DNA of 22,231 bases. It comes from a virus. Both the position numbers and the translations under genes were made by a program. The stretch spans positions 1-22,231 of the IMG/VR virus record IMGVR_UViG_3300009506_001451. One strand, written 5' to 3'. Within the stretch, counting starts at the first letter, position 1, and each line of letters starts with the position of its first letter. The notes below the pieces were generated by a model. It made no database searches. It was not told where the DNA came from and saw nothing but the letters and a program-made list of their open reading frames with translations. Of this stretch, positions 15,069 through 22,231 are shown one piece after another.

Positions 15069-15263
15069 CTACCGACCACCGGTCGTCATCGGGCCCATTG
15101 TGAATGGGTCAGGATCCGGTGCTTTCGGAAGCTGCGATTGGGGAAGGCGCTGCTCTGTTGGCACTGCATCAACGGCATCGTTATACTTCCCATGATCTGC
15201 ATCATGAGCCTCGACCGCATCTTTGTATGTGCGATCTTGTCCTACCGTGTTCGGGTCTACCAT
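15069..15263 (-). CDS. Small protein 4 of a PF-tail family
   Basis: 64 residues, unknown. The segment VGQDRTYKDAVEAHDADHGKY (residues 7-27) is closely similar to residues 12-32 of the neighbouring 61-residue protein, so the two are paralogues. The C-terminus reads DPFTMGPMTTGGR, sharing the PFT motif seen at the ends of the three genes before it. AGGAG lies 6 bases upstream. Hydrophilic throughout, with no signal peptide or membrane segment. Confidence 0.75.
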   Translation of the reverse strand: MVDPNTVGQDRTYKDAVEAHDADHGKYNDAVDAVPTEQRLPQSQLPKAPDPDPFTMGPMTTGGR

Positions 15264-15276
15264 CTCTGTCTCCTGA

Positions 15277-15462
15277 TCAACCCTTCAAAGTAAAGGGGCT
15301 TGGCTGGTTTGGGAGGGTTCCTGGGCCAGCATTCTTCGGCTTGGCCATCTTAGCCCGCGACCCGTCGTACTTCCCCTTCAAAGCATCGCACATCTCAGTC
15401 GCGTCTTTATACGTCTTGTCCTGCCCTATGGACAGGGCTTTCTCTGCATTGGGGCTCGGCAT
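15277..15462 (-). CDS. Small protein 3 of a PF-tail family
   Basis: 61 residues, unknown. Residues 12-32 (IGQDKTYKDATEMCDALKGK and a Y) match the neighbouring 64-residue protein. The tail is basic and Pro-rich (AKMAKPKNAGPGTLPNQ) and ends SPFTLKG. GAGGAG lies 6 bases upstream. It is 13 bases from the next gene. Its small size, strong ribosome binding site and repeated tail motif argue that it is a real, probably virion-associated protein. Confidence 0.75.
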   Translation of the reverse strand: MPSPNAEKALSIGQDKTYKDATEMCDALKGKYDGSRAKMAKPKNAGPGTLPNQPSPFTLKG

Positions 15463-15463
15463 G

Positions 15464-15691
15464 TCAAGCTCCTCTCATGGGGCCGAACGGGCTCCCTTGG
15501 ATTGCGGGTGTCGGCACGCTGCTGACGGCCGGCTTGGGCTCCTCGTGCATGTCTGCAGGCATGTCCGGTGTGATCGGATGCCCTCCTTGCGGACAATAAG
15601 GAACGTCATCAACGAAGCTTCCGGGAGCTGTTCCGATCTCTAAAGCCCGCTTCCTCGGGCTCCTCAAGCTTCCTGGTGATGCTTGCGGCAT
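15464..15691 (-). CDS. Small protein 2 of a PF-tail family
   Basis: 75 residues, unknown. The N-terminus is basic (SPGSLRSPRKRALEIG), the centre is Pro-rich with a single Cys and His residues (DDVPYCPQGGHPITPDMPAD), and the C-terminus ends SPFGPMRGA, a diverged form of the PFT tail. The ribosome binding site AGAGGT contains the stop codon of the preceding gene. Likely largely disordered. Confidence 0.7.
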   Translation of the reverse strand: MPQASPGSLRSPRKRALEIGTAPGSFVDDVPYCPQGGHPITPDMPADMHEEPKPAVSSVPTPAIQGSPFGPMRGA

Positions 15692-15694
15692 TGT

Positions 15695-15886
15695 CTACCT
15701 CTTCAGCGTGAAGGGCACGCCTGAGTGAGTAAGGGATTTTGGACCAAAGTCCTTGACGTCCTCCCAACCAGAACCCGAAGACTCCGACCCTTTTGCATCG
15801 GTTTTCTCTTGATCTGGAGCCCTCGCATACTGATCTGGAAGAATCCGACCAAGGTCCATCTTCACTGGGGTTCCGTCGTTTGGCAT
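15695..15886 (-). CDS. Small protein 1 of a PF-tail family
   Basis: 63 residues from the ATG at 15886, unknown. Hydrophilic, with an acidic/Gly/Ser middle (GSESSGSGWEDVKDFGP), ending VPFTLKR. The tail is nearly the same as the SPFTLKG end two genes downstream, although the rest of the protein is unrelated by eye. The frame continues open upstream, but the earlier ATG at 16030 lies inside the preceding gene. A GAGGG stands 12 bases before the ATG, farther than usual, so the start is less certain. Confidence 0.65.
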   Translation of the reverse strand: MPNDGTPVKMDLGRILPDQYARAPDQEKTDAKGSESSGSGWEDVKDFGPKSLTHSGVPFTLKR

Positions 15887-17837: not shown

Positions 17838-18241
17838 GGGATCTCCCCGGGAACTGCCGCCGAGACCCTGTGAGAGCTGCTCAGCCCCTTCCTGTCAATC
17901 TCCACCACAGCCCAGCTGGGGCCGTTTGCAGCGGCCCGCTCGGCCTCGACGCGGCACATATCGCAGGCGCCTACGTCACTGATCTTCACCATGCGCCCCT
18001 CCGTTGTGCTGATCGTCGGGACGTATTCCCCATCAGGGTTGGACATCATGATCGCGACTGCCAGCTCGTGACAGTCGCGCATGAAGTCATCATACGGGTA
18101 CAAGACCTTGATTCGTATGGCCGCCGGCTGCCCGCACACGTAGCAATCCTTGCGGATGCCATATGCCCGGTGTGCCTCGTCCGGCGTCATTTTCCCGTCC
18201 ATGAACTTCTTGACGTGCCTGATCTTTTTTTCGTCGCTCAT
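17834..18241 (-). CDS. Small protein with two CxxC motifs, probable zinc binding
   Basis: 135 residues from the ATG at 18241, which has GGAGGAG a few bases upstream and an ATGA overlap with the HAD gene; an in-frame ATG at 18361 lies inside that gene and is rejected. CYVC (33-36) and CDMC (93-96) flank a central helical part (DFMRDCHELAVAIMM) and a strand pair (GEYVPTISTTEGRMVKISDV). The two knuckles probably join one zinc ion. A predicted N-terminal helix is Lys-rich. Function unknown; it overlaps the next gene by ATGA. Confidence 0.75.
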   Translation of the reverse strand: MSDEKKIRHVKKFMDGKMTPDEAHRAYGIRKDCYVCGQPAAIRIKVLYPYDDFMRDCHELAVAIMMSNPDGEYVPTISTTEGRMVKISDVGACDMCRVEAERAAANGPSWAVVEIDRKGLSSSHRVSAAVPGEIP

Positions 18242-18696
18242 CTGCTCCTCCGTTGATCTCCGTACTCCTCTGCCATCTCCAGCCAGCTCATCGCTCCAGG
18301 ACCATGGCCTAGCCTGATAGCCTTGTCGTCTATGTACAGGTCGGCGCTCACCTTCCCGCACAAGCCGTCGTCGACGGAATCTACTATGTCGCCCAGGTAT
18401 CTGTCGATGAACTCCAACATCTGAACATATCGCGCTTCATTCAGCTCCCTGCTACGCTGAAACGCTTCACCAACCTTCACCAACTTTTTCCCTACGCGGG
18501 CCAGCGGATCTAACCTGGGATCTTGCCTCAATGCCAAGTTGGCACGCGCAGAGTAAACGATGATCTGGTGTCCGGCATCTTTCAACGCCCGCAAAGCCTC
18601 AAGCGCGTCTGGCATGAAACGCAGCGGCGTTGTCAGATCTTCATAATCCCTGTCCTGGCTAACGATCGTTCCGTCGAAGTCAACGGCGATGATCAT
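18238..18696 (-). CDS. HAD-superfamily hydrolase (probable phosphatase)
   Basis: 152 residues. The N-terminal MIIAVDFDGTIV is HAD motif I, with nucleophile Asp6 and acid/base Asp8. Motif II is the IIVYSAR strand (Ser49), and the C-terminal acidic motif is YIDDKAIR (121-128). The small insert (residues 60-90, lysine and charged) and the size fit the phage and bacterial small HAD group that dephosphorylates sugars, nucleotides or nucleic-acid ends. The substrate cannot be told from sequence. It starts in an ATGA overlap with the RyR gene and ends in an ATGA overlap with the CxxC gene. Its place between portal and head genes is unusual for a metabolic or end-repair enzyme. Confidence 0.85.
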   Translation of the reverse strand: MIIAVDFDGTIVSQDRDYEDLTTPLRFMPDALEALRALKDAGHQIIVYSARANLALRQDPRLDPLARVGKKLVKVGEAFQRSRELNEARYVQMLEFIDRYLGDIVDSVDDGLCGKVSADLYIDDKAIRLGHGPGAMSWLEMAEEYGDQRRSR

Positions 18697-19148
18697 GTCT
18701 TCCTTTTCCGGCGAGCCTTCTGCTTCGGAGGATCCTCCTCTACCGCTTCTTCCGGTACATGGACAGAACCGCTAGGGTACTTTCCGGGGAACGTCAGCGG
18801 GCGTAGCGCTTCTACGACGGACACGAACAGAGCATCTTTTATCCTCTGCGAGTCCGGCAAGTCATGGTACGGAACCATACACGGGTGCTCTTTTTTCTCT
18901 GGAGCCTTAATCGGTCCATGCTTCCAGCCTGCGGCTTGCTTCTCAGCCAGCCACCCCTCGTGACTGTCTTTAGGGGTTCGGCCGGGGTTGTCCAAGACGG
19001 CCACAACTCCGTTGACGGCACTGCCCTTCTGCCACTCGGGAGCCATGTCCCACGTAGATTGGCTGTGGTCCCCGATGCTCATGCAGTACGCCCTATTCGC
19101 CTCGTGGCACACGCGAGCAATCTGCTCCTCGTTCAGAACTACCTCCAT
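18693..19148 (-). CDS. RyR-domain protein
   Basis: 151 residues. Residues 8-115 form a complete RyR domain, named for repeats in ryanodine receptors and found widely in phages and bacteria: VCHEANRAYCMSIGDHSQ, W-x-MAPEWQK, NGV, SHEGWLAEKQAAGWKHGP and KKEHPCMVPYHDLP are all present. The domain's role in phages is unknown; a ligand- or nucleotide-binding role has been suggested for other members. The last 30 residues are acidic then strongly basic (KQKARRKRKT), possibly a nucleic-acid contact. A GGAGGAAGC ribosome binding site precedes the ATG. It is the first gene after the portal and is joined to the HAD gene by an ATGA overlap. Confidence 0.9.
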   Translation of the reverse strand: MEVVLNEEQIARVCHEANRAYCMSIGDHSQSTWDMAPEWQKGSAVNGVVAVLDNPGRTPKDSHEGWLAEKQAAGWKHGPIKAPEKKEHPCMVPYHDLPDSQRIKDALFVSVVEALRPLTFPGKYPSGSVHVPEEAVEEDPPKQKARRKRKT

Positions 19149-19164: not shown

Positions 19165-21093
19165 TCACTCTGTTGGGCTGGCCTCCAGCCACTTCATGAG
19201 GTTATCGCGCAGGATGACGTACTTGTTCCCGACCTTGTTGCCAGGAAGCTGCCCGCGCTTTATGGCGTTGTGGATCGTGTTCTTGGACACGTTGAGAAGA
19301 GACGCTGCCTCGTCCGAAGACATGGATGGCGGTGCGTCTTCGACCCTCTCCATGCTTGCCTCGACGTCCTCAACCTCCTCTATCGTGGCCTCCTCACCTT
19401 GCTCTTCACCCGACTGCTCCGGGCTCGACGGAATACCAGGGCTGCGGAGCATTCCAAGCGCCTGGGAGGCCAGGTCCTCCTGCTCAAACTGGGCCTCCCT
19501 CTGGATGTTCCCGAGCATGGTCTGAACGTCTTTGACGTTATAATGTTCAGCCACGTACTTGACAGCGTGCTCCTGATCGATGAGGTGGCCAGCCTTGGCG
19601 GCGATGGCGCTGCGGGTGGCTAACTCTACGTCGGATAGCATAGGCTCGAAATATTTTGGCCATTGGAGCTTCACGATCCCGCCGTGCCCAAGCTCTCTCT
19701 GCACGAGAACCTCTTCCCCAGTCTCTAAGATCATTTTTCGTGGGGGGAGGTCGATCACACCGCGGACCCTCAAGCCGGTCTCCTCGTCGATCCCACCTCC
19801 CTGAACTTTTGGGACTGCGGCAACAACCATCTCTAACAGGTCTTGTATTCCCTTCTCGCCGTACTGCTCGCGCATCACGTCAGCCTTGGCAATCATGGAC
19901 GAGTATACCCGCTCGATCTCCGTTGCAGTCCTGTTACTTACGTCCGGGTGCTCCAGAACGCACTGCACTACCTCTAAGAAGTTCTTGCGGAATTCCTTGG
20001 CAAGCTCCATGGCCGACCTTGGACCGCTTCCCGCGATCTCGATGTAGTTGGCGCTTCCCTCCGGAAGCTTGATCGCGTTGTCGCTCCCCTTGCGGATCTC
20101 CGACATCTCCGCCTTCGTCACGAGGACCAGCGTGGGATCGCAGTTAGCCACCACGCCCTTGTTGGACTGCGACATCAATGCATCGATCGCCTCCAACGTG
20201 TCATACCCTCCGAGGCAGTCTGGGTCTCCATCAATATCGTCCTGGACAGGCGTGTTCTGGATCCACACTACTGGGCAGAACCCGAACCCATGGTTGACAA
20301 CTTTATCCTCCTCCCACGCAGGCTCCGTCCCATCCCCGACCGAAACAGGCTTAAACAATACATCCGACTCGTCAGAGATAATGCGCCTGTGCCAGTACCA
20401 GTTAGTTACGTACTTCGTCTTGGACTCGTCCAGCTCGTCTACTGGGTACATGTAGCGCTTCTCCAACGACCGCAGCTTCAGCCGCGCGCGATCGATGAAG
20501 ACGGCCTTGCACCATCTGGGATCGTGTACCTCAAACTCGATCTTGCCGTTTACGAACTGGAAGCCGATCCCAACGGTCCCCATGGCGCCGCCGTATGTCC
20601 TGGCCATGATCATCTGTGGCCACAACCTTCCGACTCGCGCTATGGCCTGTAGAAAATCCTCCGTGTCAGGGTCGCCGTCCACGCGTATTTCAGGATGATG
20701 CCGCTCGCTGAACAGTAAGCCGGTAAACCTGTCGACGACTACCTTGCACAATGCGTATGGGGCCGTCGGCTTCCTGAACTTGATCGGAAGAGTCTCGCCG
20801 GCATCGTAGAACCCAGGCGGTATGAACCCGGCATGGGCGACGGCCTCGTGTTCAAGCGGGTCCAATATTGGAGTGCCGTTCCAGTCCAGCTTCCTGTTGG
20901 AATAGTTCTCGCAGCGGTAAAACGACCACAAGCGGTTGAGCATCATCTGACGCGGGGTCATTCCAAGGTTGCTTATGCGCTGGATGGCCTCTTGGATGTT
21001 CTCTACGCGCTTCCCGCCTGCCTGCAGTTTCTCCGCCAGACCTGAGATCAGTCTTTTAACTGGACCTGGATCGTACCTGGTTCCGCTGCTCAT
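19165..21093 (-). CDS. Portal protein with C-terminal excisionase-type helix-turn-helix
   Basis: 642 residues. The dodecameric portal is the channel for DNA packaging and exit and the binding site for terminase and connectors. Core signs: FIPPGFYDAGETLPIKFRKP, VVVDRFTGLLFSE, an Asp-rich LGGYDTLEAIDALMSQSNKG segment, the stem/tunnel-type region ELAKEFRKNFLEVVQCV and a helix with NRTATEIERVYSSMIAKADV; the order and size fit SPP1-type portals. Residues 545-590 form an acidic Glu/Ser linker. Residues 591-642 (19323-19168) are a near-complete HTH_17/AlpA-type domain: SSDEAASLLNVSKNTIHNAI, then KRGQLPGNKVGNKYVI and LRDNLMKWLE. The frame is continuous, with no stop between. An ATG at 19353 (Met581) with GAGG 5 bases before it could also give a separate 62-residue HTH protein. 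The DNA-binding function of the tail is inferred from the motif. Confidence 0.9.
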   Translation of the reverse strand: MSSGTRYDPGPVKRLISGLAEKLQAGGKRVENIQEAIQRISNLGMTPRQMMLNRLWSFYRCENYSNRKLDWNGTPILDPLEHEAVAHAGFIPPGFYDAGETLPIKFRKPTAPYALCKVVVDRFTGLLFSERHHPEIRVDGDPDTEDFLQAIARVGRLWPQMIMARTYGGAMGTVGIGFQFVNGKIEFEVHDPRWCKAVFIDRARLKLRSLEKRYMYPVDELDESKTKYVTNWYWHRRIISDESDVLFKPVSVGDGTEPAWEEDKVVNHGFGFCPVVWIQNTPVQDDIDGDPDCLGGYDTLEAIDALMSQSNKGVVANCDPTLVLVTKAEMSEIRKGSDNAIKLPEGSANYIEIAGSGPRSAMELAKEFRKNFLEVVQCVLEHPDVSNRTATEIERVYSSMIAKADVMREQYGEKGIQDLLEMVVAAVPKVQGGGIDEETGLRVRGVIDLPPRKMILETGEEVLVQRELGHGGIVKLQWPKYFEPMLSDVELATRSAIAAKAGHLIDQEHAVKYVAEHYNVKDVQTMLGNIQREAQFEQEDLASQALGMLRSPGIPSSPEQSGEEQGEEATIEEVEDVEASMERVEDAPPSMSSDEAASLLNVSKNTIHNAIKRGQLPGNKVGNKYVILRDNLMKWLEASPTE

Positions 21094-21099
21094 GGGACG

Positions 21100-21399
21100 C
21101 TACCTTATCACCTGGCTGCCTGGGTTTGAACACGAAGATGACGGATCGATCGGTGACATCTTCAACGCCTGCGCGGCCGTGTCGATCAACCATTCTATCT
21201 GAGCCTTCCATTCTTCGAAACAATCTTGTTTCTCAACGATCTCCGGGTCCATTATCTGTATCATGGATTGGATGCAGGCAAGCGCCACGCGCACGAACGG
21301 GTCACGCTTCCCATCGTCCATGGCCAACGACATGGCGCCTTTGATGGCCTCGTCGTGCTCCAGGGCCTCCTGCAACTGCTCGTCCGTCATCCCTTCCAT
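21100..21399 (-). CDS. Small unknown protein between terminase and portal
   Basis: 99 residues. The sequence is helical and acidic: TDEQLQEALEHDEAIKGAMS, a central hydrophobic helix with VRVALACIQSMIQIM, then KQDCFEEWKAQIEWLIDTAA, and a Ser/Pro-rich tail (SPIDPSSSCSNPG). No known domain. It starts 1 base after the terminase stop, and its own stop TAG lies in the AGGTAG ribosome binding site of the portal gene, so expression is coupled to both. It might be a small terminase-portal adaptor; this is inference from position. Confidence 0.75.
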   Translation of the reverse strand: MEGMTDEQLQEALEHDEAIKGAMSLAMDDGKRDPFVRVALACIQSMIQIMDPEIVEKQDCFEEWKAQIEWLIDTAAQALKMSPIDPSSSCSNPGSQVIR

Positions 21400-21400
21400 A

Positions 21401-22231
21401 TTACCTGTCCATCAGTGAGAGGCGCCCGAACTCTACCTGTCCGCTAGAAGTACTCATCCTGGAGCCCTCTCTGGCAAACCAGGAGGCCATCAACCGGTCT
21501 CCTGTGTGGGCGTTTGGGTCATAGTAGAGCATTTCGTTGATCCACGCAGTAACCTCCGGGTCCAACGTTCCATCCCCAGGATTAGGCACGATCCACTTAC
21601 CACCAGCCATTTCCGCAGCCAAGGACTCGACGCCGAACTCAGGGTGCGCTTTATTCCGCCCTGTCGTAAATGGGTGGATAGGAAAAGCAGCCCCTTGGTT
21701 CGCAAACTGGATCAAGAAGTCCTGTGCTGCATTATTCTCAACTACGAATATGGCCATGTACCGCCTGTGGTTATCGGCAATCCTGTTCAGAATCTCAGGC
21801 CCCGACCACTTGCCGGATTCGATGTTGATCACCTCCCGATCCCCGTTCGGGTGGACTATAATCGTGAACAGCACCGTGGATCCAGATGCCCGATGTTTCT
21901 GAACGCCCAAGTCAACTCCGCTGTATACCTTGCAACCAGTCGGAAGCGACTCTATCGCATATGCCAGCTTACGACCTTTTCCGCGCTCTATAGCCTTGTC
22001 GATCCACTCCTTCTTGAACCTGGACACACTCTCGTCCCTGGCCATGCATAACATCTGCCGGGCAAATTCAAGCGGCCCAAGCTCGGAACGCCTCTTCTCG
22101 ATCCGCTCCATCGGCCACCGTTCCGGCCACCTAGACCGGCCCGTCTTCGGGTCTATGATCGGATATCGGACGGCCTCCCAACCGTCCATGCGGGCAAACC
22201 TGTGCAGAGCATCATCAGGATGAAATGCGGT
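21401..22231 (-). CDS. Terminase large subunit, C-terminal part (nuclease domain)
   Basis: The frame is open to the right edge, so the ATPase half lies outside; 276 residues are visible. It starts within TAFHPDDALHRFAR, the loop between ATPase and nuclease domains that in this family carries a similar H-x-DD motif. The nuclease core follows: Asp in YSGVDLGV (visible residue 107), Glu in FVVENNAAQD (165) and Asp in HTGDRLMASW (245), the RNase-H-like acidic triad that cuts concatemeric DNA. A TerL linker-type EFARQMLCMAR helix is present before it. The C-terminus (STSSGQVEFGRLSLMDR) is short. No small terminase is in the window; it should lie further right. Confidence 0.93.
   Translation of the reverse strand, partial: TAFHPDDALHRFARMDGWEAVRYPIIDPKTGRSRWPERWPMERIEKRRSELGPLEFARQMLCMARDESVSRFKKEWIDKAIERGKGRKLAYAIESLPTGCKVYSGVDLGVQKHRASGSTVLFTIIVHPNGDREVINIESGKWSGPEILNRIADNHRRYMAIFVVENNAAQDFLIQFANQGAAFPIHPFTTGRNKAHPEFGVESLAAEMAGGKWIVPNPGDGTLDPEVTAWINEMLYYDPNAHTGDRLMASWFAREGSRMSTSSGQVEFGRLSLMDR

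Follow-up and report, generated by a model that had tools for sequence, protein, structure and literature searches.

Introduction

Portal proteins are among the most conserved machines of phages. Their contacts with DNA are usually viewed in terms of channel electrostatics and packing at the crown, not of dedicated DNA-binding domains, and the recognition and clamping of genome ends are assigned elsewhere, to the terminase or to internal proteins. In the SPP1 portal gp6 (PF05133; PDB 7z4w, 2jes), the crown leads the DNA into the capsid interior, and residues 471-503 are unresolved in the structure (PMC9701221). In many podoviruses, the portal is extended past the crown by a C-terminal barrel that lies within the capsid (PMC7617512). 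Single-domain winged helix-turn-helix (wHTH) proteins of the HTH_17 type, to which BldC, Pukovnik Xis and RdfS have been assigned, often coat DNA cooperatively in a head-to-tail manner with a loose sequence requirement (PMC11963761).

Here we describe a phage portal that ends in such a domain. It is encoded on a partial viral contig of 22,231 nucleotides (IMG/VR record IMGVR_UViG_3300009506_001451), called the window, which was analyzed over its whole length. As far as we have seen, the protein is an ordinary portal plus an extra module that is new to portals. The fusion seems not to have been described before, in agreement with the initial annotation, which treated it as unfamiliar among well-studied portals. 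No portal fused to an HTH DNA-binding domain was found in the open-access literature searched, subscription papers being outside its scope, and among the matches listed for three portal tails in phage records, none lay in a feature annotated as portal. A recurrent DNA-binding head on the capsid-facing end of the portal would open a way to test how the DNA end packaged last is retained near the portal, and it marks the portal C-terminus as a site where small modules (HTH, LNGAQ-type, NE[VA]R-type) may be swapped.

The portal gene and the fold of the portal body

The 642-residue portal is encoded by a single unbroken frame (21093..19165, minus strand), the C-terminus of which reads ...MSSDEAASLLNVSKNTIHNAIKRGQLPGNKVGNKYVILRDNLMKWLEASPTE. 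It lies between terminase and head genes, in the order TerL, portal, head morphogenesis, scaffold, capsid, and the genes named by the PHROG search in this partial contig are mostly for head, packaging and tail. Upstream of the portal is the C-terminal part of the large terminase (21401-22231, minus strand; phrog_38, 70 bits), truncated by the contig end and separated from the portal by a small ORF from the ORF list (21100-21399, minus strand) with a weak PHROG match.

The portal body, residues 1-545 (19459-21093, minus strand), matches the PHROG portal families phrog_145, phrog_104 and phrog_64. With PF05133 it scored 18.9 bits, under the cut-off of 25.5, and a PF05133 match at E 0.01 or better was obtained for 19 of 47 members of the window's portal family; PF06074 (Portal_Mu) gave no match to the window portal in the Pfam search. 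When the PDB was searched by sequence alone, using the family profile, no portal came up, unlike in the search by fold. The AlphaFold2 model built from 47 sequences had a mean pLDDT of 81.6, with a confident body up to about residue 550, and Foldseek returned the SPP1 gp6 connector 7z4w as top match (E 4.3e-14). The structural alignment by VIA paired model residues 44-541 with gp6 residues 39-470 (Z 23.2), and many solved portals matched over about 300-410 residues at Z 18-26. The predicted structure has all four portal regions: clip, stem, wing and crown. We therefore class the protein as a portal by predicted fold and gene context, not as a member of PF05133.

Whereas the body fold is like that of gp6 at a sequence identity of 13%, the two proteins differ past the crown, where gp6 has merely about 33 unresolved residues and the window portal has an extra linker and a wHTH domain. 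Because the linker starts where the gp6-like crown ends, the HTH should, by homology, lie inside the capsid. The proposal of the initial annotation that the tail sits just past the crown, and hence in the capsid, is supported by the AlphaFold2 model, Foldseek and the VIA comparison with gp6 (PMC9701221). The ring is expected to have twelve subunits. The location proposed here is also that of the podovirus barrel, but the window extension is a predicted DNA-binding domain that would fold independently on a flexible tether.

The C-terminal winged helix-turn-helix domain

Residues 591-638 (19180-19323, minus strand) match PF12728 (HTH_17) with 51 bits (cut-off 27, E 1.8e-13) and the NCBIfam excisionase model TIGR01764 ('excise') with 44 bits (cut-off 28.8). 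In the full-length AlphaFold2 model, the tail consists of a strand (590-592), two helices (593-600 and 604-612), two wing strands (618-621 and 624-628) and a last helix (629-638). This E-H-H-E-E-H order is that of a wHTH fold, with pLDDT mostly 80-90 across residues 590-638. The same elements appeared, with pLDDT about 90, when the tail was modeled alone from a small alignment. A chance resemblance to HTH domains is ruled out by the two profile scores together with the predicted fold. The profile search and both predictions therefore uphold the in-frame fusion of a portal to an HTH_17 domain that had been read from the letters. The domain had been placed at 19168-19353; its HTH core stands, but this span also takes in ten residues of the linker and the four C-terminal residues (639-642, SPTE; 19168-19179, minus strand; pLDDT <50 at 640-642), which fall outside the HTH proper. 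From these sequence matches and the predicted fold, we conclude that the portal frame ends in a true HTH_17/excisionase-type wHTH.

In VIA comparisons, the neighbors of the tail were BldC (Z 7.2), Pukovnik Xis (Z 6.9), RdfS (Z 6.2), the DNA-binding domains of viral packaging motors 7lwr, 7lxs and 7lw0 (Z 6.3-6.9) and lambda gpNu1 (1j9i, Z 5.2), values of 5.2-7.2 being those of a small common fold in which subfamilies are not separable. CbpM (3ucs) was also among the matches. The MerR-like single-domain proteins BldC, Xis and RdfS share fold and family with the tail, but they are free proteins acting at promoters or att sites, whereas the window domain is tethered to a portal. Likewise, the small terminase (TerS) domains of the gpNu1 type (1j9i, with the packaging-motor entries 7lwr, 7lxs and 7lw0) share the wHTH fold class and have a role in DNA packaging, but they belong to separate proteins that recognize cos or pac, whereas the window domain sits on the portal.

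The linker (residues 546-590; 19324-19458, minus strand) is strongly acidic, with 13 D/E and 2 K/R, and mostly predicted to be disordered (pLDDT <50 at 551-580). The net charge of the tail, counted as K/R against D/E, is just +2. An ATG near the linker end (Met581; 19351-19353, minus strand) had been suggested as the start of a separate 62-residue product. This is not supported: the codon reads AAG (Lys) in L001, the single sibling portal (described below), and a stand-alone product from Met581 was rejected on that ground. Met591 is conserved in the sibling, and no ribosome-binding site was found ahead of it.

Conservation and distribution of the tail

The sibling, L001 (IMG/VR 3300017963_007099), has a portal whose identity to that of the window is 74-76% across the full 642 residues; it carries the same tail in frame (83% identity in the tail). 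This independent contig stood in for resequencing and rules out a frameshift or chimeric assembly as the source of the fusion, the first of which the initial annotation had allowed for. For this one pair, pN/pS was 0.24 for the body and 0.23 for the tail, with the linker as the least constrained part at 0.34. The tail value resembles that of the body, and the tail is under purifying selection, as measured on the single pair. A drop of pS in the tail was not significant (Fisher p 0.41, window vs L001), and a packaging-site function overlapping the tail codons was rejected for this reason.

A survey of related portals for the same tail, as had been proposed, found it in L001 and not in the other 90 of 91 further distinct complete family members in IMG/VR. 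Consistently, Pfam detected HTH_17 in two of 47 family sequences, the window and one other. According to an HMM built in this analysis and simple patterns, on which the counts rely, 22 of the 91 portals bear an LNGAQ-type module at the C-terminus, 5 have one of the NE[VA]R type, and 63 have neither these modules nor an HTH. No Pfam family matched at the LNGAQ-type and NE[VA]R-type modules in the members tested. Judged from these sequences, small modules are generally accommodated at the C-terminus of the portal. The portals of L044, L060, L069, L078 and L305 are among those bearing these recurrent C-terminal modules.

The tree of portal bodies pairs the window with L001 as sisters (support 100) adjoining the tail-less L006, and their branch is nested in a group with good support whose other portals either lack a tail or carry the LNGAQ module. 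Because of this nesting, the simplest history suggested by the sequences is that the HTH was gained once, on the common branch of the window and L001. In bacterial genomes, no relative of the window portal passed confirmation and a scan with the tail returned only non-portal HTH ORFs; no match was found in plasmids. Among annotated phages, just two portals were related to that of the window, distantly, at 25% identity.

A second fusion in Mu-like portals

Scanning with the 52-residue tail alone led to L083, a Mu-like portal with a C-terminal HTH_17 domain (Portal_Mu 115.7 bits, HTH_17 45 bits). Its relative L085 has the same composition (Portal_Mu 59.6 bits, HTH_17 33.5 bits, PHROG portal 205 bits), and in both the layout is that of the window protein: portal body, linker, C-terminal HTH_17. 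These two are the only HTH-tailed proteins among 115 complete Mu-like portals. Those other matches of the tail scans that were read as ORFs were non-portals, mostly small stand-alone ORFs.

As the window body has no PF06074 match, the window-type and Mu-like fusion portals are unrelated at the sequence level. The same kind of module was thus placed at the same portal end at least twice, since most relatives in both families are tail-less and the window tail is confined to a nested branch. L216, the nearest relative of L083 (59% body identity), ends where the HTH of L083 would start, so that the two sequences can be read as the before and after of a junction at which the module was gained or lost. 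L216 retains the end of the L083 portal linker (NIVPIK / NVIPIQ) and stops at the HTH start. In the AU test, L083 and L085 were rejected as a single clade (p 0.0004). A third independent fusion origin is only suggested, because long branches surround both proteins.

Possible functions of the tethered domain

The best-supported reading is that of a tethered DNA-binding head touching DNA at the inner mouth of the portal. A portal resembling SPP1 gp6 would have gained, past the crown of its C-terminus, a BldC/Xis-type wHTH on a flexible acidic tether of about 40 residues, and twelve such heads would surround the inner mouth of the channel, hanging inside the capsid. With this many flexibly tethered heads at one place, a local DNA-binding cluster is expected. 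Like other proteins of the fold, the heads would bind the phage's own DNA as a cooperative cluster of low specificity, and the portal-proximal DNA, which is packaged last and leaves first, would be kept in place or in order while packaging proceeds and afterwards. That the acquired domain binds and holds or orders portal-proximal DNA inside the capsid is, in our estimate, about an even call. The computed elements in its favor are the fusion itself, its conservation in the sibling, purifying selection, the predicted fold, the ending of the body at the crown and the recurrence in a second family; that there are twelve copies, that they lie inside the capsid, and that they bind DNA and hold or order it, we infer. 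What counts against it is that a wHTH fold can mediate protein-protein contacts too, as in CbpM (3ucs), and that the tail has a net charge of only +2 next to a strongly acidic linker. Since the portals of nearly all relatives work without a tail, the tail would not be needed for packaging in general. A bolder version, in which the twelve tethered heads in the shell read sequence and clamp the phage's own genome end, having arisen independently in at least two portal lineages, is rather doubtful.

The presence of other small modules at the C-terminus of related portals (LNGAQ-type in 22/91, NE[VA]R-type in 5/91) makes protein docking a serious rival to DNA holding. The wHTH would then be a protein-protein module for a scaffold, capsid or other internal protein in procapsid assembly, and CbpM (3ucs) is a case in which the HTH/MerR fold binds a protein partner. 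The tail, however, is clearly HTH_17 and its top structural neighbors are DNA binders, so we consider such an assembly tag unlikely. The chief rival that is itself based on DNA is genome selection: the tail HTH would read a pac or cos packaging signal and take over part or all of the work of the small terminase, for instance if it tethered free portal rings to the genome prior to procapsid closure. Packaging-motor domains (7lwr, 7lxs, 7lw0; Z 6.3-6.9) and gpNu1 among the fold neighbors point this way, as does the L001 terminase, for which no TerS homologue was found within the 1.3 kb on its upstream side, but a head on the crown side would face the capsid interior, away from DNA awaiting recognition, and synonymous sites in the tail show no significant conservation (Fisher p 0.41).

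Genome selection loses further ground on the evidence for separate small terminases. A TerS-like gene is located upstream of TerL in some 40 related loci, including L006, the nearest tail-less relative, and L083 combines the fusion with a separate TerS candidate (phrog_2538). The TerS-like assignment in the related loci is putative, from position and apparent layout. The absence of a homologue from L001 is uninformative, as its upstream flank covers 1.3 kb and the gene of L006 is 2.7 kb from the terminase; the window, too, stops short of such a distance, ending within TerL. Its HTH belongs to the portal reading frame and does not form a gene of its own upstream of TerL. Replacement of the small terminase by the portal tail is thus disfavored; recognition of the packaging site, which the initial annotation had offered as one function, is weakened, and genome selection in general is improbable. 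The TerS-like gene (L006 2198-3034, L018 87-716, some 40 loci) is conserved yet highly divergent, and it is named by no Pfam or PHROG profile.

Phage proteins of the HTH_17 kind are commonly annotated as regulators or excisionases, which would fit an autoregulator: the structural operon would be repressed through an operator, either by unassembled portal subunits or by a tail translated on its own. Neither candidate internal start favors this, as Met581 is not conserved and no ribosome-binding site precedes the conserved Met591, and there is no apparent reason why two unrelated portal families would choose the same partner; we regard it as very unlikely. No more can be said for neutral capture, in which a stray excisionase-like gene became fused to the portal without function. 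The rarity of the tail (the window and 1/91 relatives; 2/115 Mu-like portals) would agree with it, but purifying selection on the tail (pN/pS 0.23) and the recurrence in a second family make it the least probable of these explanations.

Neighboring genes

Immediately after the portal, the window encodes an RyR-domain protein (18693-19148, minus strand; PF02026, 38 bits), with a homologue of 56% identity at the same position in L001. Among the head genes, a small protein (18238-18696, minus strand) matches phrog_1238, annotated as phosphoheptose isomerase, and, weakly, polynucleotide kinase families; it also has a homologue in L001. Further on, a run of four small ORFs of 61-75 residues (15069-15886, minus strand) has homologues in many related phage loci. 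Two of the four are paralogues (GQD[KR]TYKDA), and all carry a PF(T/G)-type motif at or near the C-terminal end, possibly a common docking peptide.
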